A stretch of DNA of 34,323 nt from Muribaculaceae bacterium (GTDB lineage Bacteria > Bacteroidota > Bacteroidia > Bacteroidales > Muribaculaceae), in assembly GCA_017619355.1 (NCBI GenBank), contig JAFZSO010000029.1, forward strand, positions 1-34,323, read 5' to 3'. A program made the position numbers and the translations under genes. Shown here one piece after another: positions 3,953 through 25,317 of this stretch (position 1 is the stretch's first letter; every line of letters starts with the position of its first letter). The notes under the pieces were generated by a model that was not told where the DNA came from, did not search any database, and saw only the letters and a program-made list of their open reading frames with translations.

Positions 3953-5353
3953 ATGAAGAAATTTTTACTTATGACAGCGGTAGCGCTTCTAGGCTTTGCA
4001 AGCGCTTCAGCAGTAGTTGATCCTAACACCTATGAGCCGGTAAACGACATTAAGATTCAGAATCTGTGGCTGCTCGACCGTGCTCATGCTGCCGATGCGT
4101 TCACTAACCTGGACGCTTGTAACGCCAATGCCCGCATGGCTGTGATGACCGATGGCGTCGTCTATGTCTCGCGTTCTTGGGCTAAAGCCATCATTACCGG
4201 AACCGATACAGTGAGCGCTGCTGTGATTTATCGCTTCGATGCCAAGACTGGCGAAGAACTGCCCGAACTGGTGCTCACCATCGATGGCGGTTACGTCACT
4301 GCTCAGCTGGGTGCTAACAGCGTGGGTGTTGACAACTTCGGTCACCTTTGGGTGGCTCCTGCCTCGTTTATCGCTTCGGCAACAGTGCCCCTCTATTCGC
4401 TTGACAAGGAGACTGGTGAACTGACCCTTGTGGCTGAACTCGATAAGGGTGAGTTGCAGCGAATCGACTATTTCGATTTGATGGGTGACCTCACTCGTGA
4501 AGAGGCTCCCTGTAATGTGCTTGCCGTGGGTTCACAGGTGCCCACCATCTACAAGTGGCACTGCGACCAGGGTGATGATTACTGGGATGGCGGCTTCGAC
4601 GGCGACACCTACATGGACATCATCGACTTCTTCCCCGAGACTGTGACGCAATGGGGTTATGCTCCTTATGGCAAGATGATTCTGAACATGGAAGATGAAG
4701 AAGCTAAATATGATGGCGAACTCTTCTACATCGACGGTTTCAATTCTATGCCTGCCATTTACGACAACACTGGTTCAATGGTCGACAACTTCGAGAATGT
4801 TCCCACCGAATTGTGGCCAGTTGCTGGTACTAACGGTGTGGCTGAGTTCACACTCGAGGGTCGTAATTTCCTCGTCTATTCTATCGCTCAGTATGAGGGA
4901 TATGATGAGGGTACCGAAACTTGGCGTGCTTGCCAGGCCAACATCTGCGAACTGGGAGAGGGCATGAGTCTTGCCGGCATGACCAAGTACTGGCAAATTC
5001 CTGCCGACAAGTTGGGCGATGTGTCAGACGGTGGTACCCGTATCCACGCATTCAACGTGGAATATGCCGAAGAAGATGGTTCTGAGGTGGTGTATCTGCT
5101 CACCTTCAAGTGCTACAACGGCATGGGCGTTTACAAGATTGGTAAGAACGTCGGCGGCGGTGGCGAAGAGCCTCTGAAGGGCGACGTGAACGGCGATGGC
5201 AAGGTGAACGTGAGCGACGTTACTGCCTTGGTGAACATGATTCTGGGCGTCATTCCTAAGGACGAACAGCGTGCCGATGTGAATGGCGACGGCAAGATCA
5301 ACGTATCTGACGTTACTGCTCTCATCAACATCATTCTTGGTGTTGTTTCATGA
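3953..5353 (+). CDS. Secreted propeller-like protein with C-terminal dockerin-like module
   Basis: A 466-residue exported protein of unknown function. The N-terminus, MKKFLLMTAVALLGFASASA, is a signal peptide with no lipobox, so the product is exported as a soluble or surface protein. The body (about 21-400) shows repeated strand-turn patterns such as IYRFDAKTGEELPE, VGVDNFGHLWVAP and LYSLDKETGELTLVAELD, which resemble beta-propeller blades; I infer a propeller fold but cannot name a family. A linker, GGGGEEPL, leads to a dockerin-like tail (409-466) with two EF-hand loops of the form DVNGDGKVNVSD. It is a paralogue of the next gene, sharing EPVNDIK near the N-terminus and YNGMGVYKIGKNVGGGGEEP before the tail. 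It has its own promoter and terminator, so it is probably monocistronic. No catalytic motif is recognised. Confidence 0.85.
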   Translation: MKKFLLMTAVALLGFASASAVVDPNTYEPVNDIKIQNLWLLDRAHAADAFTNLDACNANARMAVMTDGVVYVSRSWAKAIITGTDTVSAAVIYRFDAKTGEELPELVLTIDGGYVTAQLGANSVGVDNFGHLWVAPASFIASATVPLYSLDKETGELTLVAELDKGELQRIDYFDLMGDLTREEAPCNVLAVGSQVPTIYKWHCDQGDDYWDGGFDGDTYMDIIDFFPETVTQWGYAPYGKMILNMEDEEAKYDGELFYIDGFNSMPAIYDNTGSMVDNFENVPTELWPVAGTNGVAEFTLEGRNFLVYSIAQYEGYDEGTETWRACQANICELGEGMSLAGMTKYWQIPADKLGDVSDGGTRIHAFNVEYAEEDGSEVVYLLTFKCYNGMGVYKIGKNVGGGGEEPLKGDVNGDGKVNVSDVTALVNMILGVIPKDEQRADVNGDGKINVSDVTALINIILGVVS

Positions 5354-5395
5354 TGCCAATTCAGCCGTGAATTAATACTAAAAATCATAGATATA

Positions 5396-5427
5396 ATGCT
5401 CTCTGAACACTCAGGGAGCATTTTTTT
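5396..5427 (+). terminator. Intrinsic terminator after the first propeller-like gene
   Basis: An 11-bp stem, ATGCTCTCTGA / TCAGGGAGCAT, with an ACAC loop and one G-U pair, followed by seven T residues. It lies 43 bp after the stop codon. Confidence 0.9.
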
Positions 5428-5444
5428 GTGATTTGTGATTGCTA

Positions 5445-5475
5445 TTTGACAAATTCTTATTAATTTTACAATTTG
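5445..5475 (+). promoter_or_regulatory. Probable promoter of the second propeller-like gene
   Basis: TTTG at 5445-5448 and TACAATTTG at 5467-5475. The -7 element has one extra base compared with TAnnTTTG (it can be read as ACAATTTG with a 19-nt spacer), so this match is weaker than the others. The leader to the ATG at 5516 is AT-rich. Confidence 0.45.
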
Positions 5476-5515
5476 AAATTCATATTAACATTATAACCCT
5501 TTAAATACGTATCTT

Positions 5516-6919
5516 ATGAAGAAAAAATTACTCTTTTCAATGCTTGCTCTTGTGGCAAGTGCAAGTGCCTGGGCCATCACTGATAATCAGGTGTATGAGC
5601 CAGTTAACGACATCAAATGTGTGAACAAGTGGATTTATGACCGTGTGCATACTCCCGAAGCCTACACAGCCGATGCTATTTGCAGTCAGCGTGCCCGTAC
5701 CGCTGTGATGGACGAAGGCGTTATCTATGTGTCGCGTTCTGAAGAGAAACTGGTGGTTGTTGGTAACGACTCACTCATGCAGAGTGTGATACACCGTTTC
5801 AATGCATCTGATGGTTCGGCTCTGCCCGACCTTCCTTTGACACTCGATGGTGCTCCCTATGCTCGCTTCCTGGGTGTGGCAAGTATTGGTGTCGACAACT
5901 TCCACCATATCTGGGTGGCTCCAATGACCAGTACTGCACAGAACGAGGTACCCGTCTATATGGTGGACACCGAGACTGGCGAGTTGACCCTCGTTGTGGA
6001 AATGGATAAGGGCGGTGACATTCAGCGTACCGACTACCTCGACGTGATTGGTGACCTCACTGGCGAGGAGGCTGAGTGCAACATCATGACCATTGCCGGT
6101 TCGTCGGCCGAGCCGGGCTTCCCCACGGTTTACAGGATGCACCTGAGTCAGGGCGAGACTGAATGGGAAGGCGGCTTCGACGGCGACACCCATGTTGATT
6201 TCGTCGACTTTTATCCTGAAACAGCCACTGGCTTCAGCCTTGGTCCTGTGGTGAAGATGCTGCAGAACTATGAGGATGAAGAAATGCGTTATGCAGGCGA
6301 GTATTTCTACATCGACTGCTTCGGTCGTGACCCTGTTCTCTATGACGTGACAGGTACCATCATCGATACATTTGAAGAGGCTTCTGATGATGTGAAACAG
6401 ACCGACAAGGGCGCCAACGGCGTTGTGGAATTCCAGCTCGAGGGCCGCAACTTCATGGCTTATCCCAAGGCTCAGTATGACAAGAATGGTAACGGATGCC
6501 AGATCTATGTGTGCGAGTTAGGCGAAGGCATGAGCCTCGCTGGCCTCACCAAGTACTGGCAGTTGCCCGCCGACAGTGTTGGCAAGATGAGCGATAGTGG
6601 TCTGCGTGTGCACTGCATCAGCATTGAGAAGAGCGTTGATGACGAGGGCAACGAGGTTGTGACCCTGTTCACCTTCAAGGCCTACAACGGTATGGGCATC
6701 TATGAGATTGGCAAGAACGTGGGCGGCGGTGGCGAAGAGCCTCTGAAGGGTGATGTGAACCGCGATGGCAAGGTGAATGTGAGCGACGTGACTGCTCTCG
6801 TCAACATGATTCTGGGTGTCATTCCCAAGGATGAAGAGACTGCCGATGTGAATAAAGACGGCAAAGTAAATGTTTCCGATGTCACGGCACTAATCAATAT
6901 CATATTGGGTGTCGTTTAA
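5516..6919 (+). CDS. Secreted propeller-like protein with C-terminal dockerin-like module (paralogue 2)
   Basis: A 467-residue paralogue of the preceding gene with the same order: signal peptide (MKKKLLFSMLALVASASAWA), propeller-like body with GVDNFHHIWVAP and YMVDTETGELTLVVEMD, linker GKNVGGGGEEP, and a two-repeat dockerin-like tail at about 411-467. The bodies are clearly homologous but well diverged, while the tails are nearly identical. In the tail one EF-hand loop reads DVNRDGKVNVSD and the second DVNKDGKVNVSD, keeping the calcium-ligand positions 1, 3, 5, 9 and 12. The last 70 bp use AT-richer codons than the rest of the gene. Its own upstream signals and a strong terminator suggest a single-gene unit. 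Substrate or binding partner is unknown. Confidence 0.85.
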   Translation: MKKKLLFSMLALVASASAWAITDNQVYEPVNDIKCVNKWIYDRVHTPEAYTADAICSQRARTAVMDEGVIYVSRSEEKLVVVGNDSLMQSVIHRFNASDGSALPDLPLTLDGAPYARFLGVASIGVDNFHHIWVAPMTSTAQNEVPVYMVDTETGELTLVVEMDKGGDIQRTDYLDVIGDLTGEEAECNIMTIAGSSAEPGFPTVYRMHLSQGETEWEGGFDGDTHVDFVDFYPETATGFSLGPVVKMLQNYEDEEMRYAGEYFYIDCFGRDPVLYDVTGTIIDTFEEASDDVKQTDKGANGVVEFQLEGRNFMAYPKAQYDKNGNGCQIYVCELGEGMSLAGLTKYWQLPADSVGKMSDSGLRVHCISIEKSVDDEGNEVVTLFTFKAYNGMGIYEIGKNVGGGGEEPLKGDVNRDGKVNVSDVTALVNMILGVIPKDEETADVNKDGKVNVSDVTALINIILGVV

Positions 6920-6945
6920 CTACGATTCTAACCTAACATCTCATA

Positions 6946-7071: not shown

Positions 7072-7111
7072 TGGTTTGAATTAAGAAGAAAATAATATAA
7101 TAATAATTGCA

Positions 7112-9532
7112 ATGAAAAAGATATTTACATCAATGGCTTTGTCGCTGCTTGCGACACTCAGTGCATGGGCTTCAGGCTCCATCAACCTGATGGGCACAAC
7201 CTATGTGGTCGATACCTTGTTTCACAATCAGGTGGGGCCGGGCACCATGCAGACGTCGCTCTGGCTCCACACAGGCTCGGCTAAATTGCGTGTGTTCTAC
7301 CTCACCATCGACATGACCAACCCCTATGTGACCCTGAGTGGCGTGTGTGCCACCGACAAGGTGGCGGGCAACGAGCGCGTGTCGACCATGGCTGAGCGCA
7401 AGTCTCGCCCTGGCAAGCGCTACTTTGCCGGCATCAATGCCGACTTTTTCGTGACCAGTGGCTACACCGCACGTGGCGTGAGCAAAGTGGGCACTCCAGT
7501 GGGTTCCACCGTGGTTGAAGGTCAGATTTTCCGTGCCCGCAACAATGCCACCCTTTACAAGAATTTCATCATGGACCGTGACGGCAAACTCTATGTCAAC
7601 CCCTTCTTCTTCGGAGGCACGGTGACAGGCCCCGACGGCACGCAGGCAACCTTGGGTGGCATCAATACCAATGCCAACGAGAGTGCCGCATCGAACAAGA
7701 ACAAGATAACCATCTATAACGACCTGTACTACGGCAGCACCGACGAAACCGCCGCATGTTGTGAGGTGCAGGCTGTGCTTGCCGATGGAGAAGTTTTCGA
7801 GACGGCCCGCCCCTTCAGGATGGTGGTCACGAGCGATACCAGTACGGTGGGCGATATGCTCATTCCCAAAGGTGGCTATGTGATTCATGCTCACGGTACC
7901 GCTCGCAACCTGGTGAACAAGTTGCAGGTGGGCGATACCGTTACGGTGTCACCCACATGGACCTTTAACGGCATGAGCGTGGAGCCGTGGGAGGTGATTT
8001 CTGGCAATCCCAAGATTGTGGAGAATGGCGAAGTCATCGATCAGGACTCTCATCGCCCCGATGCTACCCAGTTGCATCCGCGTTCGGGTGTGGGCTATAG
8101 CGACAATGGCAACAAGGTCTACTTTTGCGTAGTCGATGGTCGTTCCACTTTATCTGATGGCGTGCGCACCCGTGTGCTGGGTGAAATCATGCGCTATGCG
8201 GGCGCTACCGAGGCCATGAATGTAGATGGTGGCGGCTCCTCTACACTCTACACCAGCGCGCTGGGGGTTCGCAATCGCCCCAGCGACGGCAACGAGCGTG
8301 CCGATGGCAATGCCATCTTCGGTGTGAGCAATGCCCCCGACGACGACACCATTGCCATGATTCGTTTCCAGGATTTCAGGCTCCGTGTACCCAAATATGG
8401 GGTTTACACGCCCAAGTTCTATGGCTATAATAAATATGGTATGCTCCTTGACCTCGATGTGAAGGGTGTGACCCTCTCTTGCCCCGAGTCAATGGGTGAG
8501 ATCATCAACGACGGCACCACCTTCTATGCAACGGGCTCGGGAGTTGCGACACTCACTGGCCACTACAATGGCGCCATCATCGAAGCCCCCGTTGAGATTG
8601 TCGGGACAGTCGATGACATCGACATCACCAACGACTCGATTATCAACGACACCTATCGTGACTATGCAGTCGACGTGCAGTGTGTAGTACTCGATAACCA
8701 GATGCCCATCTATAGCGGTGCCCTCAGTTGGGCATCGAGCGATGAGAGTGTGGTGACCATTGATGCAGAGACGGGCGTGTTGCGCGGCATTACCGATGGC
8801 AAGGCCTATGTGACCGGCACCATCGACGGCGTAACCGACACCATGTGGGTGAGCGTGGAAAAGCCCACCGCCCGCGTGATGCCCATCGACCCCAATCTCG
8901 ATGTAAGTACCTGGAAGACTTCGCAAGCGGGTGGCAAGGAGGTAGAGGTGACAGCTGCAGGCGATGGATTCATTTACCAATACACAGGCTCGAGTACCCG
9001 CATACCCAAAATTACTTTGACCAAGAGTTTCAGACTCTGGAGCCTGCCCGATACCATCAGGGTGCGAGTGAACCCTGGTGAGGCCCCTATGAAATCGATA
9101 TCATTCGGCCTGCGGGCCTGCGGAGGGGGCATCAGTTATCCGGTAGTGGCTCCTGACACCATCGTGCCTAATGAGGAGAATGTGATTGACTTGCCCATCG
9201 CTTCGTGGATTGATGCCGACGATATGGGCAATTATCCCATCACCATGAGTTCTATGCAGATTGGCATGGACGCCTCGGAGGTGGGAAAGCGCTACACCAT
9301 GCAGTTTCTGGGTTTCGAGACGGTGTATGCCGCCGTTCCTCCTGAAGAACCTAAGCATGGCGATGTGAATGGCGACGGCCGTGTGAACGTGAGCGATGTG
9401 ACCGCTCTGGTCAACATGATACTGGGTGTTCAACCCGTGAATCTGGAGCGCGCCGACATCGATGGCAACGGCCGCCTGAATGTGAGTGATGTAACCCGAT
9501 TAATCAACATAATATTAGGATTGGAGTCATGA
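7112..9532 (+). CDS. Secreted phosphodiester glycosidase (NAGPA-type) with Ig-like, beta-sandwich and dockerin-like modules, copy 1
   Basis: An 806-residue exported protein. After a signal peptide (MKKIFTSMALSLLATLSAWA), residues about 30-420 match the NAGPA/phosphodiester-glycosidase family, whose known members hydrolyse sugar-1-phosphodiesters. The diagnostic motifs are GINADFF (107-113), HPRSGVGY (322-329), VVDGRS (340-345) and NVDGGGSST (370-378). Then follow a bacterial Ig-like domain (about 500-585, with WASSDESVVTIDAETGVLRG), a beta-sandwich of possible carbohydrate-binding type (about 586-745), and a two-repeat dockerin-like tail (748-806). All motif residues are intact, so activity is plausible; the substrate cannot be read from sequence. 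It is the first gene of a three-paralogue operon: its stop overlaps the next start (ATGA). The second dockerin loop begins DIDGNG, a slight variant. Confidence 0.9.
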   Translation: MKKIFTSMALSLLATLSAWASGSINLMGTTYVVDTLFHNQVGPGTMQTSLWLHTGSAKLRVFYLTIDMTNPYVTLSGVCATDKVAGNERVSTMAERKSRPGKRYFAGINADFFVTSGYTARGVSKVGTPVGSTVVEGQIFRARNNATLYKNFIMDRDGKLYVNPFFFGGTVTGPDGTQATLGGINTNANESAASNKNKITIYNDLYYGSTDETAACCEVQAVLADGEVFETARPFRMVVTSDTSTVGDMLIPKGGYVIHAHGTARNLVNKLQVGDTVTVSPTWTFNGMSVEPWEVISGNPKIVENGEVIDQDSHRPDATQLHPRSGVGYSDNGNKVYFCVVDGRSTLSDGVRTRVLGEIMRYAGATEAMNVDGGGSSTLYTSALGVRNRPSDGNERADGNAIFGVSNAPDDDTIAMIRFQDFRLRVPKYGVYTPKFYGYNKYGMLLDLDVKGVTLSCPESMGEIINDGTTFYATGSGVATLTGHYNGAIIEAPVEIVGTVDDIDITNDSIINDTYRDYAVDVQCVVLDNQMPIYSGALSWASSDESVVTIDAETGVLRGITDGKAYVTGTIDGVTDTMWVSVEKPTARVMPIDPNLDVSTWKTSQAGGKEVEVTAAGDGFIYQYTGSSTRIPKITLTKSFRLWSLPDTIRVRVNPGEAPMKSISFGLRACGGGISYPVVAPDTIVPNEENVIDLPIASWIDADDMGNYPITMSSMQIGMDASEVGKRYTMQFLGFETVYAAVPPEEPKHGDVNGDGRVNVSDVTALVNMILGVQPVNLERADIDGNGRLNVSDVTRLINIILGLES

Positions 9533-11916
9533 GAAAGAAGATAACTATTGCCTCATTGTTGCTTGCAGCCTCCACGCTTTGCATGCATGCCGAGAAAGCC
9601 ACTTACTCGTTAAGAGGCGTTGAATACACGGTCGACACGTTGTTTCATGCCTATGTAGGCCCCGGAACCACGCAGACCTCACTGCTCCTGCAGAGTGGCA
9701 ATAAGCACCTCAGGGTGTTCTATTCACAAATCGACCTGAGCTGTCCTAATGTCACGCTCAAGGCGGTGAGCGGTACCGACCGCATGACCGGCAGTGAAAC
9801 AGTGTCGAGCATGGCCCGGCGCAAGTCGGCCCCCGGCAACCGTTATTATGTGGGCGTGAATGGTGACTTCTGGATGACAAGCGGCTACACGAGCCGTGGC
9901 GTGTCGATGGTGGGCACGCCCATCTCGTCGAGCATGGCCGAGGGCATCATCTATCGTGGTCGCAACAACGATGGCGAGCTGCAGTTTACCCTCGATGCCG
10001 ATGAGGTGCCACACATTGGCCATGTGAACTTTGGTGGCACCATCGTGAAGTCCGACGGCACATCGGCTTCAATTTTCGGTGTGAACGTCGATGCCGGAAA
10101 CAATCAGATAACACTCTATAATCCCACCTATTATTCGGGCACCAACCAGACGGGCGACTGTGCCGAGGTTACCGTGCGTTATGTGGATGGCGACGACTCG
10201 TTTGCCTTTGGCCAGCCCTGCCAGTTGCAGGTGGTGGGCGCTCCCAGCACCGCTGGCGACATGGATGTGCCTACCGAGGGCCTCGTGCTGCATGGCCGTG
10301 GCTCGACCAAGGACTTCATCGCATCGCTTCAGGATGGCGACATCTTGACCATGACACTTGATGCCACGTTGAATGGAGTGGGCATTAATCCCCGTGAAAT
10401 CATCTCGGGCCAGCCCTGGATTGTGCTCAATGGCGAGACCAATCCCAATGGCAACCCCGATGTGCATCCTCGCTCGGCGCTGGGCTACAATGCCGACGGT
10501 ACTACTGCCATCTTCATGGTGGTAGACGGGCGTTCGTCAATCAGCGATGGCGTGACCACCGATGCACTGGGCGACTTGATGCGTTATGCAGGTGCCTATA
10601 TGGCGGTGAACGTCGATGGCGGCGGTTCATCTACCCTCTACACCAGTGCATTGGGGATTCGCAACCGCCCCAGTGATGGTTCTGAGCGAGCCGACTCTAA
10701 CGGCATTTTTGCTGTGTGTGATAGCCCCGACGACGATGAGGTAGCCTACATCCGCTTCCTCGACTGGAGCCTGACTATGCCCAAGTATGGCACCTATACT
10801 CCCGAATTCTTTGGCTACAACCAGTATGGAATGCTCGTTGATACCCATGTGCAGGGCGTGACCCTGTTGTGCCCCGAGAACATTGGCGTGGTGAAGAATG
10901 ATAGTGTGCTCTTTGCTAATGGGGAGGGGAGCGGCTTGCTCTCGGCAGTGTTCCAAGGCGATACCATCTCCATTCCCGTTACCGTGATTATGCCCACCGA
11001 TGGCATTCAGTTGCGCAACGATTCCATCATTACTGATACCTATCGTGACTATACCATAGAGTTGCAGAGTGTTATTCTCGACAAGGTGATGCCCATCGAT
11101 CCCGCAGCCCTTACCTGGACTAGCCTCGACGAGAGCGTGGTGATGATTGATGCCGAGTCGGGCGTGCTGCGCGGTGTGGCCGATGGCCGTGCCTGTGTGG
11201 TGGGCGAAGTAGGCGAGGTGAGCGACACCTTGCTGGTGATTGTGGAGAAACCCACGGCGCACGTCATGCCCATCGATCCCGACCTTGACATAAGCACCTG
11301 GAAAATTACGCAGTCTGGCGGCAAGAATGGTGTGGCCGAGGCTCATGGCGATGGATTCACCTACACCTACACCGGCGCAAGCAGCCGCGTTCCCAAAATC
11401 ACGCTCACCAAGACCATCAGACTGTGGAGCCTGCCCGACACCTTGCGTATGCGTGTGAATCCTGGTGAAGCCCCCATGACGGGCATCCAGTTCGGTCTGC
11501 GACCGCGCGGTAGCAATATCAGTTACCAGGCGGTGACCCCCGACACAATCATTGCCAATCAAGAGGTGGTGCTTGACCTGCCTATTGCCTCGTGGATTGA
11601 TGCCGACGACATGAGCAACTATCCCATTACGCTCAGTTCCATTCAGGTGGGCATGGGAGCTTCGGAGACGGGCAAACAGTACACGATGCAGTTCTTGGGC
11701 TTCGAGACGGTGTATAACGCCGTTGCGCCCGAAACGCTGCTCAAAGGCGACGTGAACCGCGACGGCAAGGTGAATGTGACCGACGTGACTGCCCTGGTCA
11801 ACATGATTCTGGGCGTCATTGCTAAAGACGAGGAAAGTGCCGATGTGAACCACGATGGTCGCATCAATGTGAGCGATGTCACCGCTCTCATCAACATCAT
11901 CCTCGGCATCATTTAA
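9529..11916 (+). CDS. Secreted phosphodiester glycosidase (NAGPA-type) with dockerin-like tail, copy 2
   Basis: A 795-residue paralogue with the same modules: signal peptide (MRKKITIASLLLAASTLCMHA), catalytic region, Ig-like domain, beta-sandwich and dockerin-like tail. The family motifs are intact: VNGDFW in place of INADFF, HPRSALGY (313-320), VVDGRS and NVDGGGSST (361-369). The start overlaps the previous stop by four bases (ATGA), so translation is probably coupled. Its catalytic and Ig parts resemble copy 1, while the stretch encoded by 11242-11897 is nearly identical to the matching part of copy 3, so the gene is a mosaic. The tail carries loops DVNRDGKVNVTD and DVNHDGRINVSD. Confidence 0.9.
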   Translation: MRKKITIASLLLAASTLCMHAEKATYSLRGVEYTVDTLFHAYVGPGTTQTSLLLQSGNKHLRVFYSQIDLSCPNVTLKAVSGTDRMTGSETVSSMARRKSAPGNRYYVGVNGDFWMTSGYTSRGVSMVGTPISSSMAEGIIYRGRNNDGELQFTLDADEVPHIGHVNFGGTIVKSDGTSASIFGVNVDAGNNQITLYNPTYYSGTNQTGDCAEVTVRYVDGDDSFAFGQPCQLQVVGAPSTAGDMDVPTEGLVLHGRGSTKDFIASLQDGDILTMTLDATLNGVGINPREIISGQPWIVLNGETNPNGNPDVHPRSALGYNADGTTAIFMVVDGRSSISDGVTTDALGDLMRYAGAYMAVNVDGGGSSTLYTSALGIRNRPSDGSERADSNGIFAVCDSPDDDEVAYIRFLDWSLTMPKYGTYTPEFFGYNQYGMLVDTHVQGVTLLCPENIGVVKNDSVLFANGEGSGLLSAVFQGDTISIPVTVIMPTDGIQLRNDSIITDTYRDYTIELQSVILDKVMPIDPAALTWTSLDESVVMIDAESGVLRGVADGRACVVGEVGEVSDTLLVIVEKPTAHVMPIDPDLDISTWKITQSGGKNGVAEAHGDGFTYTYTGASSRVPKITLTKTIRLWSLPDTLRMRVNPGEAPMTGIQFGLRPRGSNISYQAVTPDTIIANQEVVLDLPIASWIDADDMSNYPITLSSIQVGMGASETGKQYTMQFLGFETVYNAVAPETLLKGDVNRDGKVNVTDVTALVNMILGVIAKDEESADVNHDGRINVSDVTALINIILGII
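11242..11897 (+). repeat. Duplicated 3' block of the NAGPA paralogues, member A
   Basis: A 656-bp stretch coding for the beta-sandwich and dockerin-like tail of copy 2. It aligns without net indels to 13653-14308 in copy 3 and differs mostly by single bases. Similarity drops sharply upstream of the shared start GTGGAGAAACCCACGGCGCA, as expected from gene conversion or recent domain-level duplication. Confidence 0.75.
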
Positions 11917-11939
11917 TCATTTTCATATAGTAAAGAGCC

Positions 11940-17408: not shown

Positions 17409-17501
17409 CATGTTCATTTCAGACAAACAATTGTGTGTAAAGAGTCAAATCACAGTTGTAATGATGAAATATACAATTATTTATAATTGAATTTTGAGAG
17501 A

Positions 17502-18644
17502 ATGAAGATAACAAAATTAGGGGTTTTGGGCTTGGGCTTGTCATTGATGATGACATCGTGCTTCAAGGACGAGCCCCTGAATGCCGAGTGCGATATTGAG
17601 CAGGTGATTCTGCACAGTACTGACGCCGAAGCGGTGTTCTTCAATTTGACCGACACCATACAGAATGTGCTTTTTGCCGATAGCATCATCAAGGTGAATG
17701 TGCGTTCAACTGCACCCCTTGAAACCGTGACACCCGAATTCAAGACCACTCCAGGTGCCACCATTCAGTGCATCGATGGCGATGTGAAGCAGGGTAAGGC
17801 TATCTATGTGGTGACGTCGGAAGACGGCAACTGGCATCGTCGCTATGAGCTTTCGCTTGTCCCCACCATGGTCACCGTGGTCGACACGATGAAGTTTGAC
17901 TTCGAGCACTATGAACTCGATCCCACCTACCACAAATTCTATGTGTGGCACAATGTGCTGCCCGATGGCACACTGGGCAATGACTGGGCCAATGGCAATG
18001 CGGGTTTCAAGATCAGTATGAGCAACGCTCAACCCGAAGATTATCCCTCGGTGCCCATCAAGGACGGTTATGACGGTTCGGCAGTGAAACTCACAACCCG
18101 CGACACAGGCCCATTTGGCGTCATGGTCAACAAGCGCATTGCTGCCGGTAACTTCTTCTTGGGCTCCTTCGATGTGCAGAACGCGCTTCTCGACGCCATG
18201 AAGGCAACCCACTTTGGCATACCGTTTGACCAAAAACCGGCCAAACTCTCTGGTTACTACAAGTATAAACCAGGAGCAACCTACATTGACCAGAAGGGCA
18301 ATGCTGTGGCCGGCAAGACCGATAGCGGCGATATCTACGCCGTGTTCTACCGCAACCACGATGCTGCCGGTAATCCCGTGATGCTCTATGGCGACGATGT
18401 GAAGACCAATTCTAACATTGTGGCTATGGCCAGCGTGAACCCGATGCAGGTGACCAGCGAGTGGACCTATTTTGAGATTGAGTTCAACTACAGCAAAGAG
18501 ATTGACCCTGCTGTGCTTGAGAATCGTGGCTATAGCCTCACCATCGTGTTCTCGTCGAGCATCGATGGAGCTATCTTCCAGGGGGCTGTGGGCAGCGAAC
18601 TGTGTGTCGATAAAGTTAGACTCATTTGCACAAGAGAGGAGTAA
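17502..18644 (+). CDS. PCMD-domain lipoprotein
   Basis: A surface or periplasmic lipoprotein of 380 residues. I choose the ATG at 17502 over an in-frame TTG 15 bp upstream because it gives a clean lipoprotein signal: MKITKLGVLGLGLSLMMTSC with the cysteine at residue 20. Residues about 30-125 look like a beta-sandwich (TPGATIQCIDGDVKQGKAIY). Residues about 135-380 resemble the PCMD (putative carbohydrate metabolism) domain, with DGYDGSAVKLTTRDTG, PAKLSGYYKYKPG and the closing GAIFQGAVGSELCVDKVRL. The domain has a jelly-roll fold in known structures and is presumed to bind glycans; no enzyme activity is established. The next gene starts 6 bp after its stop, so it forms an operon with the outer-membrane barrel protein. 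Confidence 0.82.
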   Translation: MKITKLGVLGLGLSLMMTSCFKDEPLNAECDIEQVILHSTDAEAVFFNLTDTIQNVLFADSIIKVNVRSTAPLETVTPEFKTTPGATIQCIDGDVKQGKAIYVVTSEDGNWHRRYELSLVPTMVTVVDTMKFDFEHYELDPTYHKFYVWHNVLPDGTLGNDWANGNAGFKISMSNAQPEDYPSVPIKDGYDGSAVKLTTRDTGPFGVMVNKRIAAGNFFLGSFDVQNALLDAMKATHFGIPFDQKPAKLSGYYKYKPGATYIDQKGNAVAGKTDSGDIYAVFYRNHDAAGNPVMLYGDDVKTNSNIVAMASVNPMQVTSEWTYFEIEFNYSKEIDPAVLENRGYSLTIVFSSSIDGAIFQGAVGSELCVDKVRLICTREE

Positions 18645-18650
18645 TCAACG

Positions 18651-19424
18651 ATGAAAAAGATATTTCTATCCATATTGATGCTTGCCACATCGGTTACTGC
18701 CATGCAGGCCGAGTCGTTTTTGACCAATGTGAAATCTTTCATCAAGCCGTGGCGGGTAGATGTGCGCCTGGGTTACGGCATAGGAGGTTCGGCTCCCATA
18801 GGAATGCCCGAGAGCATCAGAGAACTGAACAGATTCTCGTTGACTCCTAACTTGCTGCTTGGCCTTGACGCACACCGCGAGATCAACGACCGATGGGGTT
18901 TCATGACCGGCATTCACTTTGAAAACAAGGGTATGAGCATCGATGCCACCGTCAAGAACTACCACATGGAGATAACCCGTGGTGGACAGACCCTTGCCGG
19001 TCAGTTCACGGGTCGCGTGGTGACCGACATCACAGCGTGGATGTTCACCTTGCCGATTCAAGCTACCTTCAATGTGTCGAACAAGGTGCAGTTGAAATTA
19101 GGTCCCTATTTTTCCTACTTGACCAACCGCACCTTCGACGGCTATGCCTACAACGGCTATCTGCGCGTGGGCAATCCAACGGGCGAGAAGGTGGAGCTGG
19201 GTGCCGTTGAAGGTGAGCGTGGCGATTACGACTTCTCCGAGCACATGCGCCGCTTCCAGTGGGGTGTCGATGTTGGTGCCGACTGGCACATCAACAATCG
19301 CTTGGGTGCTTTTGCCGATTTGAGCTGGGGCTTGAGCGGCATTCACCAGAGCGACTTCCACACCGTTGAGCAGACCTTGTTCCCCATCTACGGAACAATT
19401 GGTATCTCATATAGGATTAGATAA
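18651..19424 (+). CDS. Outer-membrane beta-barrel protein (PorT-like)
   Basis: A 257-residue exported protein with a signal peptide ending near AMQA (residue 20). The mature part has alternating strands and turns typical of small outer-membrane barrels: VDVRLGYGIGGS, LTPNLLLGLDAHRE, WGFMTGIHFENKGMS, LPIQATFNVSNKVQLKLG, and a closing strand ending YGTIGISYRIR. This resembles the PorT/OMP_b-brl family found widely in Bacteroidota. It starts 6 bp after the PCMD lipoprotein gene, so the two are probably made together and may act as a surface lipoprotein and barrel partner; this pairing is inference. The next dockerin-tagged gene follows after 42 bp without a recognisable promoter, so it may belong to the same transcript. 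Confidence 0.8.
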   Translation: MKKIFLSILMLATSVTAMQAESFLTNVKSFIKPWRVDVRLGYGIGGSAPIGMPESIRELNRFSLTPNLLLGLDAHREINDRWGFMTGIHFENKGMSIDATVKNYHMEITRGGQTLAGQFTGRVVTDITAWMFTLPIQATFNVSNKVQLKLGPYFSYLTNRTFDGYAYNGYLRVGNPTGEKVELGAVEGERGDYDFSEHMRRFQWGVDVGADWHINNRLGAFADLSWGLSGIHQSDFHTVEQTLFPIYGTIGISYRIR

Positions 19425-19466: not shown

Positions 19467-21026
19467 ATGAAAAAATTGTCTTTATTTTTAGCTGTAACCT
19501 TGTGTTCGCTTGCCTCGATGGCAACCGATTTTACAGGTACTCTTAAGGTTACAGTGAACGGTAATGTTCAGCAACAGAACGCTACAATCTCAATTGACCA
19601 GAACAATGGCAATTACAACCTGTTGCTCAAGAACTTTGTGTATGAAGTAAATGGAGTTTCGAAGGCCGTTGGCAACATTGCAGTGAGCGATGTGCCCGCT
19701 ATGGCAGCAAGTGGCAAGACCCTGTTCTATGCCTACCAGAATGTAAGTATCGCTAATGGCGATGATGCATCGGCCACATGGATTGGCCCCTCCCTGGGCG
19801 AAGTTCCCGTGAAGGTGGTTGCACGCATGCAAGGCGATTATGCTGTAGTCGACTTCGAGATGCAGTTGCAGGATGAGGTCTATGCTGTTTTTGAAAATGT
19901 GGGTGACCACTTCCAGATTCCCAACAGCGACTTCGAGGTTTGGACATCCTCGACAGGCGAGCCCGACCACTGGCACGGCTTCAAATCGGCAAGCGGTTGG
20001 CTTGCTGGCTCTGCTAAAGGCAAACTTGAAAGTTCTACCGATGTGCGTCCTGGAGTCACTGGCAAGAGTGCTCTGATCACTTCAGGCTCTACCTTTGGCA
20101 TTGTCAATAACGGCACGATGACCAATGGTCAGCTTAATGCAGGAAGCATGACTGCCGCGAGCCCCGACAACCATAGCCACATGAATGTCAACTCGACGGC
20201 TACCGACAATAACGGAGACCCGTTCTATACCGCTCTTTATGCTGCTCCCGATGCCATTAAGACTTGGATTAAATATACTCAAGGAAACAGTAGCGGTAAT
20301 GACAGTTATCATGCTAATTTGAGTGCTATCGCTTTTGATGGTAATTACTATCAGGATCCTGAAGACAAGACCTATACCAATGTGGCTGCCAAGGCTGTGG
20401 ATACGCTCATTGTGAGAGGTGATTGGCGTGAATTGACCATTCCTTTCGACTACAGCAGCTATGCAGCTAACAATGCTCCTGCACAGGCCATACTGGTTAC
20501 CATCTCGACCAATGCAAAGCCTGGCGTGGGCTTCAGTGGCGACAAGGTGTGGGTAGATGATATGGCACTGGTCTATAATGCCAATGTGACCAATCTTACC
20601 TACCAGGGCACTACCATTGAGGGTTTTGATGCGAACACTCATGAATACATCTTTGCGTGGGAAAGTGAAACTGCTCCTCAGGCCAGCGATTTTGTCCTCA
20701 CCGTCGAAGGAAAGAGTGCAGTAAAGGCTGTGAATGTGGAGGAAATTGAGAATGGTTACCGCGTGGTGGCAATCGCCACTTCGGGCGACCTGATGACCTG
20801 CAATGCCTACGTCATCAACTACGAGGTGCCCGCTCCCGTCGGAAAACCTGGCGACGCTAATGGCGACGACAATGTGGATGTGAACGACGTCACTACCGTC
20901 ATCAACTACATCCTTGGCAAGAATCCCACTCCGTTCAACAGCGACAATGCTGACGTGAATGGCGACAGCACGGTCGACGTGATGGACGTGACTCTTATCA
21001 TCAACATGATTCTCGGCATCAATTGA
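19467..21026 (+). CDS. Secreted calycin-like plus PCMD protein with dockerin-like tail
   Basis: A 519-residue exported protein. The signal peptide is MKKLSLFLAVTLCSLASMA. Residues about 20-140 form a calycin-like beta-barrel domain (FTGTLKVTVNGNVQQQ, LLLKNFVYEVNG, WIGPSLGEVPV). A PCMD domain follows (about 150-375: PNSDFEVWTSSTGEPDHWHG, LYAAPDAIKTWIKY, FSGDKVWVDDMALVY), then a short beta-sandwich (about 378-455) and a dockerin-like tail (about 460-519). This tail is the most divergent in the window: loops DANGDDNVDVND and DVNGDSTVDVMD, a longer linker (KNPTPFNSDN), and serine in place of the usual loop glycine in the second repeat. It lies downstream of a PCMD lipoprotein and an outer-membrane barrel and upstream of a small calycin protein, which suggests a shared glycan-related surface role. 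Confidence 0.82.
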   Translation: MKKLSLFLAVTLCSLASMATDFTGTLKVTVNGNVQQQNATISIDQNNGNYNLLLKNFVYEVNGVSKAVGNIAVSDVPAMAASGKTLFYAYQNVSIANGDDASATWIGPSLGEVPVKVVARMQGDYAVVDFEMQLQDEVYAVFENVGDHFQIPNSDFEVWTSSTGEPDHWHGFKSASGWLAGSAKGKLESSTDVRPGVTGKSALITSGSTFGIVNNGTMTNGQLNAGSMTAASPDNHSHMNVNSTATDNNGDPFYTALYAAPDAIKTWIKYTQGNSSGNDSYHANLSAIAFDGNYYQDPEDKTYTNVAAKAVDTLIVRGDWRELTIPFDYSSYAANNAPAQAILVTISTNAKPGVGFSGDKVWVDDMALVYNANVTNLTYQGTTIEGFDANTHEYIFAWESETAPQASDFVLTVEGKSAVKAVNVEEIENGYRVVAIATSGDLMTCNAYVINYEVPAPVGKPGDANGDDNVDVNDVTTVINYILGKNPTPFNSDNADVNGDSTVDVMDVTLIINMILGIN

Positions 21027-21078: not shown

Positions 21079-21106
21079 GGGTGTCTTGCCCAAGGGTGAG
21101 ACACCC
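21079..21106 (+). other. Stem-loop in the leader of the small calycin gene
   Basis: GGGTGTCT (21079-21086) pairs perfectly with AGACACCC (21099-21106) around a 12-nt loop. No T-run follows, so it is a poor intrinsic terminator. It lies in the 105-bp gap between two dockerin-type genes, 25 bp before the ATG at 21132, where it could change relative expression or mRNA stability. Confidence 0.5.
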
Positions 21107-21131
21107 CCATTTAAAAAAAACATCAAAACCA

Positions 21132-21671
21132 ATGAAAAAAGCATTACTTCTTGTAGCAGGCTTCATGTGTGCAATGGCTGCATGGGCTACCGACTATACT
21201 GGCCAGCTTACCGTGACGGTCAATGGTGAGGCACACCAGATGTCGACCAAAATCAACCTTGTGGAAGAAGGCGGAAAATACAACTTCAGCCTCAAGAATT
21301 TCATCCTTGACCTTGGCGATGGTTTCACAATGGGTGTGGGCAACATCGAACTCGAAGGTCTCGACGCAGTAGAAGCATATGGAATTAAGACCATCACCGT
21401 CGATCAGGACATTATGATTACTGAGGGTGATGACCCCAACATTGACCAGTGGATTGGTCCCAATATCAGCCCGGTTCCTATTGTTTTGACCGCAAGGTTT
21501 AACAAGCAGGTGCTCTCGGTTGATATCGACATCGACATGAGTTCCACCTTACAGCAAATCATCAAGGTGAACTTTGTGGGTAACACTCCCGCTGGCGATG
21601 TGAACGGCGACGGTAAAATCAACGTTTCCGACGTGACCGCCCTCATCAACATCATTCTGGGTGTCATCTGA
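21132..21671 (+). CDS. Small secreted calycin-like protein with a single dockerin-like repeat
   Basis: A 179-residue exported protein. The ATG at 21132 is chosen because it directly precedes a signal peptide, MKKALLLVAGFMCAMAAWA; an in-frame TTG 51 bp upstream would add a charged, non-signal leader. The mature part (about 20-150) is a calycin-like domain closely related to the N-terminus of the preceding gene (TDYTGQLTVTVNGEAHQM, FSLKNFILDLGDG, WIGPNISPVPIVLTARF). The C-terminus (154-179) carries only one EF-hand repeat, DVNGDGKINVSD followed by VTALINIILG, matching the second repeat of the two-repeat tails elsewhere in the window. The frame is intact and a strong terminator follows. It is the probable last gene of the 17502-21671 unit. 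Confidence 0.82.
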   Translation: MKKALLLVAGFMCAMAAWATDYTGQLTVTVNGEAHQMSTKINLVEEGGKYNFSLKNFILDLGDGFTMGVGNIELEGLDAVEAYGIKTITVDQDIMITEGDDPNIDQWIGPNISPVPIVLTARFNKQVLSVDIDIDMSSTLQQIIKVNFVGNTPAGDVNGDGKINVSDVTALINIILGVI

Positions 21672-21819: not shown

Positions 21820-22548
21820 ATGAAGATGAGAAGAATAACATTTGCGCTGGCGGTGGCATGTGTGTGCCTTGCCGGTTGTGACAAGAGCCAGAATTCTCAG
21901 CTGGCCAGTGCCAGCGGTTCGCCTGAAGTGAGTGGCGAAGTAGAGACCGAAGTGAGTGGAATCACTTGCGAGTTGAAGGGAAAGGTGAACCACGATAAGT
22001 GGGAAGCCGACCAGTTGACCTCCGTCTCGTTTTCCGCCATCCCCACCACCATCGAGCAGTTCAAGGCGCTCCAGCGTGAGGTGGGCGTTGAACCTCAAGG
22101 TGCCCTGGCACTGCAGGTGCTCGCTTTCGAGATGTATCGCCGCGATGCAAAACTGGGCGAGGAAGCGCTCAGGCTCAACAACACCCAGGTGAACGTGCAG
22201 GCCACACAGCTCCAGCTCAAGGAAATGATGAACGTGAAAGATGCCTTCTATAGCCGGCCTTACATTGCCGCAGCACTCATGAAAGGCGCTTCAGCGGCCA
22301 ATGGCTATCAGCCCGACAAGCCTTACACCATTGAGATGCGGGTTGATCCCGCCAAGAAGTATCAGGAGTCGCAGTTGTTGGGTGGCACGGTCATCTATCT
22401 GCAAATCAACAGCAAGGGCTGGGACACCAACTGGCGTGGTGCCGAGGTGGTGAAACCAAATGGCTCTGACTACTATGTGGTGAGCAACTGCCCCGCACTC
22501 TACACCCAGTGCAAGCAAATGCAAGGAGAATGGCAACCCCTTGAATGA
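21820..22548 (+). CDS. Lipoprotein of unknown function
   Basis: A 242-residue protein with a lipoprotein signal, MKMRRITFALAVACVCLAGC, cysteine at residue 20. After a serine-rich spacer, the body contains FSAIPTTIEQFKALQREVG, an alpha-helical stretch (ALQVLAFEMYRRDAKLGEEA), NNTQVNVQATQLQLKEMM and a C-terminal beta region with QLLGGTVIYLQINSKG, WRGAEVVKPNGSDYYVVSNC and ALYTQCKQMQGEW. I have a vague memory of related Bacteroidales proteins of unknown function but cannot name the family. No enzymatic motif is apparent. The two C-terminal cysteines could form a disulfide. It has its own promoter and a hairpin terminator, so it is a single-gene unit, and it does not carry a dockerin tail. Confidence 0.8.
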   Translation: MKMRRITFALAVACVCLAGCDKSQNSQLASASGSPEVSGEVETEVSGITCELKGKVNHDKWEADQLTSVSFSAIPTTIEQFKALQREVGVEPQGALALQVLAFEMYRRDAKLGEEALRLNNTQVNVQATQLQLKEMMNVKDAFYSRPYIAAALMKGASAANGYQPDKPYTIEMRVDPAKKYQESQLLGGTVIYLQINSKGWDTNWRGAEVVKPNGSDYYVVSNCPALYTQCKQMQGEWQPLE

Positions 22549-22590
22549 CCGTAATGGTCATAGGGCCGATATGGGTCATTTGATGAAACA

Positions 22591-22630
22591 ACATGGGGCT
22601 GGCATTTTTTTTGCCGGCCCCATGTGTTTT
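22591..22630. terminator. Long hairpin between convergent genes, probable bidirectional terminator
   Basis: A 14-bp stem, ACATGGGGCTGGCA / TGCCGGCCCCATGT with one G-U pair, closes a loop made only of seven T residues. It is followed by GTTTTCG on the plus strand. The T-run sits in the loop rather than mainly after the stem, which is unusual. It lies between the convergent ends of the lipoprotein gene and the GHL10 gene. Confidence 0.7.
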
Positions 22631-22657
22631 CGTGCTTCGCAAGAAGTTTAGGAGAGT

Positions 22658-22697
22658 TCGATTGTTCGATTGCTCGACTACTCGACTATTCGAATAA
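22658..22697. repeat. 8-bp tandem repeat, about five units, all starting TCGA
   Basis: Units read TCGATTGT, TCGATTGC, TCGACTAC, TCGACTAT and TCGAATAA with an exact 8-bp period. It lies in the intergenic space just past the end of the GHL10 gene. The TCGA core is palindromic and fixed in every unit, while the other four bases drift. Confidence 0.8.
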
Positions 22698-22707
22698 AAA
22701 CTAAACC

Positions 22708-25317
22708 TTAGCTGATTCCCAGAATGATGTTGATAAGGGCGGTGACATCGCTCACGTTCACCTTGCCGTCACCATTCACATCGGCGGCCACCTTGTCGGT
22801 GGTGATGGTGCCCAGTATCATATTCACCAGAGCTGTCACGTCGCTCACATTGATGTTGCCGTCGCCGTTCACGTCGCCCTTTGCAGGATGTTCGGCCTTG
22901 TAAGTGAAGCTGATGATGTCGCCATAGTCGGTGCTGCGTTGCACGTTCTGTTCGTCGATGTAGGCAAGTTTTGCTCTTGCATAGTAGGTGGTTCCGTCTT
23001 CCATGAGACGGCTGTTCACCTTAATCTCGTTGGCGGGTTTCGATACCGTGGTGGCACCGTCTTTCAGCGTCTCGATAAAGCGAGTACGGGCCCACACGGT
23101 GGCCGAGTTGGAGATTTCTACGGTGTAGCTGTAAGCCTCGCTCTGAGCCTGCACCTCCACATACTGGTCGCCATACAGTTTGCCACCGTTGAGAGGCAGG
23201 ACAAACGATGGGGCGGCAAATTCGGTGATAAAGCTCACCACAGGACTGCTCTGTTCCAGTTCGTTGTAAGTGAGCGTTACATCGGCATAGTATTTGGTGC
23301 CGGGATTGATTTTTTTGGCGGGAATCACCAGCTCGCCAGTTGTTGAGGTTCCCGTGAACACTACCTCACTCATTTCCTCGTCAGTGGCAATGCGCAGTGT
23401 GGCTACGGTCACGTCGTCGGGGGCATTCCAGCGAATGGTGTCGGTAGTGCTGATGCCTTGCTGGCCATCGTAGGGATGGGTGATGACCAGGGTCAGGGGA
23501 ATAATAGAGCGAGCCTCGCTCACGCCGTTGGCATGACCCTCGCCACTGGCTTGCACACGCCAGTAGTGCGTGGTGCCGTTGCGGAAGTTGATGCCGGCGC
23601 TGCTCATCTGCGTCTCGGTGGTGGTGACGCGGGCTATCACGTGGTCAAATGTCTCGTCCTGTGCAATCTCGAGAATGTACTTCTCTGCATCATCTACAGG
23701 ATTCCACACAAAGGTAAACGGATTGTAGAGCGAAGCACCGTCGTCGGGACTCACCAGAGTGGGGTTGGGGAGCGGGTCGAGCGGATCGCCAAAAATCACA
23801 GGTGCATATTCATTGCCCACGCGGTCCAGAACACACACGGCAAACTGATAGCCCTCGCGGTACTGCTCGGGTATGGTGAAGAGCTCGTCGTAGGTCATGT
23901 CGAGCAGATACTCGCCGTTGCAGTTGAATAGCGACTGTGCCAGCGTGTTGGGGAAGGCATACACTGTGTAGCGCACGTTGTCATGACCCTTCCAGGTCAG
24001 TTGTTGGCCGTCGAAGTTCAGGTCGCGTACCGGTCCAGGGTCGGTCACTTCCTTCCACGGCATTGCCGGTGGCAGGGCAGGGCGGGTGTAGGTCACGCGA
24101 CTCAGATAGTGGGCAAACGATTCGTCGGCACCCAAGCGATAAATGTATTTGCACGAGTAGTAAATCGAGCCGGGAGCACCGTCTTCGTTGGTGGTGCGCA
24201 TCAGTTCAATCTGGTTGGCGTACTCGTCATAGTCGTTGCTGCTCGTCATGCTGGGCACGGGATCTTCTGAGCCGTAGCTGTTCTTGGTGAGCGATGAGAT
24301 GGAGTGCGATACAAACATGTGGCGCCCAAACTGCTTGGCAACGCGGTTCCACCACGGATCCAGTTTGCCATAGTCGGCGGCTGCATAGCCTATGTTCCAG
24401 TAAATCTGAGGCGAAATGTAGTCCACGCTCCTGTCGTTGTACCACGCCAGCGGGTCGCTGAAGATGCCGTTATACTGCCAGTCGCTGCCCGAGCTGCGCT
24501 CCACGCCCCAGTGGTCGGCATGTGCCTGGCTGGTGCAGGTCACGCCAGCGGGGGAGATGCCGAAGCGCACCCAGGGCTTGGTCTCCTGAATCATGTCGTA
24601 CACGGCCTTCACCATGCGGTTCACGTTGTCGCGGCGCCAGTCGGCCATGGTCATGTCGGTACCCGAGTCGACCCATTCCTGATAGTCGCCCGCCGAGGCA
24701 TCGGTGGGGATGCCGTTGGGGTAGAAGTAGTCGTCATACAGTATTCCGTCAAGGTCATAATTGGCCACCAGTTCGTGGCACACCTCCACAATGCGGTCGA
24801 TGGTGCGCTGCTGTCCTGGGTCAAGAATGATGGTAGAGCCGTGAGTCAGCAGCCAGCCTTCGTTCTTGAGTTGCTGGTCATAAGCGGTGTTCCAGTCGGT
24901 ACCGGTGCTCCATCGGTAGGGGTTCACCCACGCGTGGCACTCCATGCCGCGCTGGTGGCATGCTTCCACTATATATTGCAGGGGGTCGTAACCTGGATCT
25001 TTGCCACGTGTGCCCGTCAGGTAACTCGACCATGGTTCGATGCTCGACTGATACATCGCGTCGCACATCGAGCGCACCTGGAAGTTCACCGCATTAAAGT
25101 GGTTATTCTTGAGTGAGTCGAGCATGCGGTCGAGCTCGGCTTTCTGACTGTCGGGGGTGCTGGTTGTGGGCCAGTCGAGCTGCCACACCGTGGCAACCCA
25201 TGCCGAGCGGAATTCCTGCTTGGGCACCCCGAAGTTGGTTGCCATAGCATAGCCTGCGCCTATTAATAACGCTATGGCCAAAGCCATGAACTTGAGTGAT
25301 TTGAGTTTCATCATCAT
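22708..25317 (-). CDS. Secreted GHL10 (DUF187) glycoside-hydrolase-like protein with Fn3-like modules and dockerin-like tail
   Basis: An 869-residue exported protein. The signal peptide covers about residues 1-26 (MMMKLKSLKFMALAIALLIG then AGYAMA); three consecutive ATG codons make the exact start uncertain by two residues. Residues about 30-420 match the GHL10 family: VPKQEFRSAWVATVWQLDWP (31-50), FNAVNFQVRSMCDAMYQS, ECHAWVNPYRW and GILYDDYFYPNG (191-202) with acidic residues likely to be catalytic. A characterised relative, E. coli DigH, cleaves denuded peptidoglycan glycan strands, so a bacterial cell-wall substrate is possible but unproven. Several Fn3-like beta-sandwich modules follow (about 440-800, e.g. 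NPFTFVWNPVDDAEKYILEI), then a standard two-repeat dockerin-like tail (about 812-869). It is transcribed alone from its own promoter. Confidence 0.9.
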   Translation of the reverse strand: MMMKLKSLKFMALAIALLIGAGYAMATNFGVPKQEFRSAWVATVWQLDWPTTSTPDSQKAELDRMLDSLKNNHFNAVNFQVRSMCDAMYQSSIEPWSSYLTGTRGKDPGYDPLQYIVEACHQRGMECHAWVNPYRWSTGTDWNTAYDQQLKNEGWLLTHGSTIILDPGQQRTIDRIVEVCHELVANYDLDGILYDDYFYPNGIPTDASAGDYQEWVDSGTDMTMADWRRDNVNRMVKAVYDMIQETKPWVRFGISPAGVTCTSQAHADHWGVERSSGSDWQYNGIFSDPLAWYNDRSVDYISPQIYWNIGYAAADYGKLDPWWNRVAKQFGRHMFVSHSISSLTKNSYGSEDPVPSMTSSNDYDEYANQIELMRTTNEDGAPGSIYYSCKYIYRLGADESFAHYLSRVTYTRPALPPAMPWKEVTDPGPVRDLNFDGQQLTWKGHDNVRYTVYAFPNTLAQSLFNCNGEYLLDMTYDELFTIPEQYREGYQFAVCVLDRVGNEYAPVIFGDPLDPLPNPTLVSPDDGASLYNPFTFVWNPVDDAEKYILEIAQDETFDHVIARVTTTETQMSSAGINFRNGTTHYWRVQASGEGHANGVSEARSIIPLTLVITHPYDGQQGISTTDTIRWNAPDDVTVATLRIATDEEMSEVVFTGTSTTGELVIPAKKINPGTKYYADVTLTYNELEQSSPVVSFITEFAAPSFVLPLNGGKLYGDQYVEVQAQSEAYSYTVEISNSATVWARTRFIETLKDGATTVSKPANEIKVNSRLMEDGTTYYARAKLAYIDEQNVQRSTDYGDIISFTYKAEHPAKGDVNGDGNINVSDVTALVNMILGTITTDKVAADVNGDGKVNVSDVTALINIILGIS

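Follow-up and report, generated by a model that had tools for sequence, protein, structure and literature searches.

The stretch analyzed here is a 34,323-nucleotide contig of a Muribaculaceae bacterium (the window; contig C42 of genome G000, which comprises 2.63 Mb in 74 contigs and is 89% complete), and between positions 3953 and 25317 it encodes eight secreted proteins that carry a dockerin-like tag. By sequence this tag is a type I dockerin (PF00404), and divergent domains with a cohesin fold, predicted on the proteins of relatives, are its likely partner; they are found in seven proteins encoded elsewhere in the same genome. We consider it probable that tagged proteins and cohesins form a cellulosome-like, calcium-dependent surface assembly that is anchored by the type IX secretion system (T9SS) via a few cohesin proteins. 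Dockerin-bearing cargo would clip into the 11 cohesin domains of the seven proteins; four of these proteins, which end in a T9SS-type C-terminal domain (CTD), would be exported by SprA and then fixed to the surface or released by PorU, and the other three, which end in a dockerin and carry one, two, and three cohesins, would act as adaptors. More than 100 putatively Sec-exported cargo proteins (leucine-rich repeat (LRR) proteins, peptidases, and some glycosidases, the window's eight included) would share these cohesin anchors and have no T9SS tail of their own. We infer the cohesin-dockerin binding, its calcium dependence, the surface location, the cargo's route across the outer membrane, and the T9SS anchoring of the cohesin proteins from evidence at the level of sequence, namely the dockerins and cohesins themselves, CTD-like tails, gene order, the presence of SprA and PorU, and swaps of tail between homologous proteins. 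Candidate dockerin partners can thus be named for the genus, the dockerin-cohesin set of which is linked to T9SS, and a short list of proteins is available for direct binding tests.

Dockerin Tags in the Window and Across the Genome

All eight open reading frames (ORFs) named for positions 3953–25317 match Dockerin_1 (PF00404) above its cut-off (E 1.1e-14 to 5.5e-6), and the match stops one or two residues before the C-terminus. The matches start at 5177, 6746, 9356, 11743, 14154, 20847, 21591, and 22720, the last on the minus strand; seven tags are complete, with two repeats, and the tag at 21591 is a half dockerin with a single repeat. The top PDB sequence match of the tag at 5177–5338 is 4fl4_A, an 88-amino acid (aa) chain named glycoside hydrolase (GH) family 9 (E 2e-9), and a PDB search with one tag returned 29 sequences, many of them cellulosomal enzymes or dockerins and the remainder mostly EF-hand proteins.

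The module is far more common than the window shows. There are 140 Dockerin_1 matches in the genome, some of them partial and 139 above the cut-off, and 136 dockerin ORFs were read from the sequence fetched around them. The dockerin lies at most 13 aa from the C-terminus in 123 of the 136, is internal in six, some of which have it before a T9SS tail, and begins before residue 60 in seven; of these last, two are fragments at contig edges, and the other five are genuine N-terminal dockerins that come straight after the signal peptide (two in L129 and one each in L107, L119, and L121), in which the order of tag and body is reversed. By crude script rules, 129 of the 136 ORFs have a signal-like N-terminus and four a lipobox. 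The aspartates of the calcium loop (columns 2, 13, and 44) are identical in 129 of 129 tags.

Spectral clustering splits the 129 long tags into 93 of an alpha type and 36 of a beta type, with a silhouette of 0.42 for the two-group split and values of at most 0.053 in 20 column shuffles; average-linkage clustering at first split off only single outliers, and its six-cluster cut contained groups of 91 and 34. Alpha tags carry VSDVT in both repeats, and beta tags have A at position 3 and often an NPxPF linker. Mean identity is 0.75 among alpha tags, 0.71 among beta tags, and 0.55 between the types. At columns 12 and 43, where the residue preceding the last calcium-loop aspartate stands, alpha tags have S (80% and 92%) and beta tags N (69%) and M (72%). 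In clostridial dockerins this is a partner-recognition position, from which two binding specificities would follow, alpha and beta dockerins presumably binding different cohesins. Seven window tags are alpha (the half tag, placed by eye, among them) and one, in the ORF at 19467–21026, is beta, so that the single shared tag proposed in the initial annotation holds as to family but comprises two subtypes and one half copy.

Candidate Cohesin Proteins

The Pfam Cohesin profile (PF00963) matches the genome weakly at four places, which lie on C38, C44, and C67. The C44 protein reaches 65.6 bits over the whole protein, above the cut-off, and has three cohesin stretches and a C-terminal dockerin; the places on C67 and C38 fall below the cut-off. 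A hidden Markov model was built from eight of the genome's own segments and then from alignment A1, whose 24 rows came from 12 of the 37 genomes of the genus (this one included) plus G039 and G057. The rows are divergent, the other 23 sharing 19–48% identity with the first. A1 finds 11 cohesin domains in seven proteins of the genome, on C44, C56, C65, and C67. None of the Pfam places and none of the A1 places listed for this genome is on C42; no cohesin was thus found in the window, as had been noted initially, and the candidate partner is encoded outside it.

On C65, a C-D-C-CTD protein (C, cohesin; D, dockerin; 589 aa, running into the end of the contig; profiles A1 and A8) is followed directly downstream by the gene for a C-D protein of 222 aa (A1). 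Likewise, the gene for a D-C-CTD protein of 1438 aa on C67 (A1 and A8) has directly downstream of it one for a 416-aa protein with two cohesins, a half dockerin, and Big_2 (A1 and Pfam). C56 encodes two proteins that end in D-C-CTD by profiles, of 706 aa (with LRR by Pfam) and 623 aa, and C44 encodes the C-C-C-D protein of 688 aa (Pfam and A1). A dockerin, whole or half, is present in each of the seven, of which four end in a T9SS-type CTD and three in a dockerin; those with more than one cohesin have three domains (C44), two (C67), and two (C65). No carbohydrate-binding module was reported by Pfam on the five of these proteins that were scanned.

By sequence, the A1 profile retrieves PDB cohesins (best E 4.7e-6), NagJ cohesins among them. 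For a cohesin-dockerin protein from a relative (L181; 26 rows), the AlphaFold model has a mean predicted local distance difference test score (pLDDT) of 87.4, and the best 50 of its 134 PDB matches in Foldseek (E 0.001) are all cohesins by title (best E 3.3e-9). For a second L181 model (pLDDT 89.5) the top match is a cohesin dyad, and the 50 listed also include integrins and other beta-sandwich proteins. The initial annotation had expected a single conserved partner, whether receptor, sorting machine, or self-assembly; a conserved partner is indeed to be expected, likely within a surface assembly, but since the genome has cohesins of its own and four of their proteins bear T9SS tails, no new class of receptor is needed.

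T9SS-Type Tails and T9SS Machinery

The CTD profile A8 was made from the tails of 17 anchors, two of them from this genome. In the PDB it matches best four gingipain chains, which we take to be CTD structures (E 3e-5 to 6.5e-4, against 0.057 for the match after them), and hhalign of A8 against seven T9SS-type tails, five from this genome, gave 96.4%. The profile overlooks some tails, the anchor of L207 being without one by A8. SprA is encoded on C52 (E 7.1e-196), and 34 of the 37 genus genomes, this one included, have it; PorU is encoded on C64 in two copies and was found in 25 of 25 genomes searched. At C64:1811–16188 (L124, L125), two minus-strand dockerin ORFs stand beside two plus-strand PorU-type genes, and 10 of 20 flanks (L270–L289) have dockerin ORFs 3' of the PorU cluster.

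TIGR04183 gives 3–15 CTD matches per genome in the 37 genomes of the genus (median 9), whereas the median is 58 in 24 other Bacteroidales (eight counts of at least 78); as divergent tails escape TIGR04183, the genus counts may be underestimates. Replacement of CTDs as a general rule was rejected, as the cohesin-dockerin lineages G084, G111, and G215 keep 86, 96, and 113 CTD matches, and as G147 and G157, which have few dockerins, are likewise low in CTDs (seven each).

Distribution and Gene Order

Among 61 relatives, A1 cohesins are found in all 37 genus genomes, 25 of which contributed no A1 row, and in three of 24 others. Pfam Cohesin at E 0.01 matches in 24 of the 37, and among the five own cohesin proteins scanned it finds the cohesins of one; Pfam-based surveys can therefore miss many such cohesins. 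Dockerin matches per genus genome range from 29 to at least about 87. A locus of G031, a genome of the genus, matches Ca. Sodaliphilus fimicaballi with 100% identity over 1903 bases, which makes Sodaliphilus (Muribaculaceae) the very probable genus. The sole dockerin-rich genome among the 24 non-genus relatives is G039, with 38 dockerin matches and 24 cohesins; it belongs to another family of the order, encodes polycohesin ORFs of 2467, 1239, and 3777 aa at C25:211548–221546 and C18:53572–58080, and has 74 T9SS-tail matches. Across 198 evenly drawn Bacteroidales, a dockerin match (E 0.001) is present in 16 of 16 A1-positive and 55 of 182 A1-negative genomes (Fisher p 2e-8), and when the three genomes that supplied A1 rows are removed the A1-positive share is 13 of 13 (p 5e-7).

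A scan of GTDB contigs with A2 retained the best 80 of 96 relatives, largely rumen and hindgut metagenome-assembled genomes (MAGs) assigned to Muribaculaceae, Prevotellaceae, Prevotella, Bacteroidales, Candidatus Sodaliphilus, and a few others. The 80 loci were chosen by the cohesin of the following gene, and some followers end at the locus edge; within this selection a tailed cohesin ORF is present in 49, and a second cohesin ORF begins less than 300 bases downstream in 39, with a dockerin and no tail by profile in 29. The C-D-C-tail layout recurs in 34 proteins, the gap from C to D being 12–21 residues, and a 921-aa ORF of G030 has six tandem cohesins followed by a dockerin. Among 142 cohesin ORFs with a stop, 118 have a dockerin, 51 a tail by profile, 47 both, and 20 neither; the tail count is partly circular, as A8 was built in part from the same loci, and it is the PDB search that tests this profile independently.

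Cargo and Exchange of Tails

Pfam tallies cover 132 of the 136 dockerin ORFs (omitted were three pieces at contig edges, two of them scraps, and one cut ORF) and list 25 families out of 30 and out of 43. LRR_5 leads with 42 ORFs, followed by DUF285 (13), peptidase C10 (11), peptidase M6 (6), and GHL10 (4); there are at least five NAGPA, at least three alpha-amylase, at least three CotH, and at least two subtilase ORFs, and GH16 and GH53 occur once each among those listed. No GH5, GH9, or GH48 is among the families listed. Plant-cell-wall enzymes do not dominate, and the lead of BspA-type LRR and peptidase families among those listed suggests cargo that is not mainly cellulolytic.

Homologous bodies can bear either tail. 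Two neighboring subtilases on C52, L166 and L114, end in a CTD and a dockerin, respectively, and share 38% identity over 496 columns; L168 (CTD) and L042 (dockerin) share 34% over 420 columns. A third case pairs the body of the window ORF at 5516–6919 with L241 (35% identity over 411 columns). L241 has C-D-C near its end and then a CTD-like tail, which was found by A8, a profile to which L241 itself contributed a row. Such switching between CTD and dockerin suggests that bodies with either tail reach the same place.

The Tagged Genes of the Window

The first tagged gene (3953–5353, plus strand) encodes a secreted protein of 466 aa with no Pfam body and a C-terminal alpha-type dockerin at 5177–5338 (E 1.1e-14). 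Its paralogue at 5516–6919 (plus strand, 467 aa) carries a C-terminal alpha-type dockerin at 6746–6907; the two bodies had been described as propeller-like, and Pfam gave no propeller domain. Three NAGPA-type genes follow on the plus strand, each with a C-terminal alpha-type dockerin: the first (7112–9532, 806 aa, dockerin 9356–9517) and the third (11940–14330, 796 aa, dockerin 14154–14315) are assigned through the identity of their bodies (0.57 and 0.51 for the first against the second and third, 0.59 for the third against the second), and the second (9529–11916, 795 aa, dockerin 11743–11904), a phosphodiester glycosidase, is the one scanned singly, and there Pfam bears out the type. Pfam likewise agrees with the annotation of two calycin-like proteins and a GHL10 protein. 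The first calycin-like protein (19467–21026, plus strand, 519 aa) has its C-terminal beta-type dockerin at 20847–21014; the ORF of the second, at 21081–21671 on the plus strand, has a better start at an inner ATG at 21132, giving 179 aa (21132–21671) with the half dockerin at 21591–21659, which covers positions 1–23 of the 57 of the profile. The GHL10 gene (22708–25317, minus strand, 869 aa) ends in an alpha-type dockerin at 22720–22881.

That the tag is far more conserved than the bodies is borne out by the first ORF pair (tags 0.91, bodies 0.55 identical) and by the second and third NAGPA proteins at 9529–14330 (tags 0.98, bodies 0.59), where the contrast has the look of gene conversion or of a recent exchange of tags. 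ORF pairs with unrelated bodies have tag identities of 0.50–0.96, the highest value being that of the half tag, and body identities of 0.22–0.39. Paired between the tagged genes, at 17487–19424, are genes for a PCMD-domain protein and an outer-membrane beta-barrel protein (OMP_b-brl_2), both without dockerin, and a gene for a DUF6935 protein with a lipoprotein-like N-terminus (21820–22548) adjoins that of the half dockerin.

Alternative Explanations

Several observations weigh against a T9SS-anchored cohesin-dockerin assembly. In four of the five own proteins scanned (one protein of L126, two of L127, and one of L117), Pfam at E 0.01 does not report the cohesins. The AlphaFold chain of cohesin and dockerin has a predicted template modeling score of 0.65 (0.73 in the other model), and with 0.65 the model shows no defined packing of the two modules; docking within one chain was set aside as uninformative. 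TIGR04183 reports four of ten proteins tested, L020 passing (27.9 bits, cut-off 23), L015, L137, and L145 being weak, and six, three of them from this genome, being unreported; the tails of the own cohesin proteins are also absent from 16 genome-wide TIGR04183 matches at E 0.1. PorU stands beside cohesin-anchor genes in one of 20 tested flanks (G005; several flanks end at a contig edge), and a linkage of the two, first noticed as four cases in lists, was dropped. A1 finds no cohesin in seven of the 12 Bacteroidales with at least 10 dockerin matches, so that an expanded dockerin set is not by itself a predictor of the cohesin, and several A1-positive genomes have just one weak dockerin match. 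The seven (G088, G130, G131, G143, G152, G155, and G232) have many listed matches that begin at about profile position 8, some in very long proteins, and these dockerin-like matches possibly represent another kind of EF-hand module or have another partner. Cargo proteins have no CTD that would account for their export. We tentatively raise a piggyback route, which we hold to be doubtful, in which periplasmic cargo would clip onto cohesin-CTD carriers and pass through SprA with them; if this were true, a handful of T9SS carriers would export more than 100 proteins, the dockerin would be a T9SS signal in trans, and the covalent CTD would have been largely replaced in the genus.

If the dockerin were itself a T9SS-type sorting domain, read by the secretion machine, no cohesin would be needed. 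The overwhelmingly C-terminal position of the tag, the paucity of CTD matches in a genus that retains SprA and PorU, and the homologous bodies with either tail would all fit, but the five N-terminal dockerins and the internal ones, some of them ahead of a T9SS tail, make such a role, which had been among those first suggested for the tag, unlikely. As the tag is moreover a dockerin by sequence that co-occurs with cohesins, and as other cohesin-dockerin lineages keep their CTDs, we regard direct sorting as quite improbable. Slightly less so, though still unlikely, is that the cohesin-like domains are mere spacers in T9SS proteins and that dockerins bind glycan, an unknown receptor, or each other. 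The divergence of the cohesins, their absence by A1 from seven of the 12 dockerin-rich Bacteroidales, and the small number of domains (11 against 136 dockerin ORFs) speak for this, whereas dockerin matches in every A1-positive genome and the predicted cohesin fold speak against it; up to six tandem cohesins before a dockerin, and stand-alone cohesin-dockerin proteins, would be implausible spacers, and few cohesins need not be a difficulty, given that R. albus, by an excerpt of PMC6118326, is believed to attach its enzymes to the cell through a single cohesin. Least probable of all, to the point of being very hard to credit, is a true cellulosome for plant fiber, even though the relatives come largely from rumen and hindgut, Sodaliphilus dockerins have been read as cellulosomal (PMC10872696, in part), and the cargo includes three alpha-amylases, one GH16, and one GH53. 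A rumen Ruminococcus cellulosome has LRR_5-dockerin and dockerin-peptidase proteins according to part of PMC7480376, which makes LRR and peptidase cargo compatible with a fiber cellulosome; against this stand the predominance of LRR_5, with peptidases next among the enzymes, and a list of families that contains no GH5, GH9, or GH48. A surface assembly of cohesins and dockerins anchored by T9SS remains the reading that we prefer.

Comparison With Known Systems

The system is a known kind of cohesin-dockerin assembly in a little-studied setting, and its anchoring arrangement was not found described for Bacteroidales. Our literature search, mostly below full text, recognized neither a described scaffoldin in the genus, a finding that the initial annotation had named as a refutation of its reading, nor a publication that pairs Bacteroidales dockerins with T9SS-tailed cohesins. 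Sodaliphilus MAGs have been credited with 63–107 "cellulosome dockerins" each, in a main text that does not use the word cohesin (PMC10872696, in part). Excerpts of PMC9863278 report dockerins said to be without cohesin in Muribaculaceae C941, and dockerins with "cohesion" modules in Prevotella, for which cellulosomes were proposed. The role of Bacteroidetes dockerins in polysaccharide utilization loci is "not defined yet" in a passage of PMC7480376, and the portions available of these three papers make no link between Bacteroidota dockerins and T9SS. Dockerins and cohesins have been counted in cattle MAGs (PMC9763041, excerpt), and cellulosomal parts are given as absent from Ca. Paraporphyromonas in the portion available of PMC5831590.

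Clostridial cellulosomes share with the present system the dockerin family, the predicted cohesin fold, C-terminal dockerins, and proteins that bear both modules. They differ from what is seen here in Bacteroidales, where four of the seven cohesin proteins have T9SS-type tails, none of the five scanned was reported to carry a carbohydrate-binding module, and LRR and peptidase families lead the cargo. Clostridium perfringens carries cohesins on secreted surface enzymes without a cellulosome and has few components; its NagJ cohesins are among the PDB matches of ours, whereas the tag here is genome-wide.

The closest precedent is from Cloacimonadota, for which the idea of a T9SS-anchored scaffoldin has already been published: the accessible part of PMC8542988 describes "Ca. 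Stygibacter" with dockerin-bearing peptidases and glycosidases and a tandem-cohesin scaffoldin with a T9SS CTD for direct attachment. That organism has one scaffoldin of 3,755 aa with CBM2 and CBM3 (PMC8542988, same part), whereas the genome described here, from another phylum, has several smaller putative anchors with the layouts D-C-CTD and C-D-C-CTD, separate candidate adaptors, and 136 dockerin ORFs.

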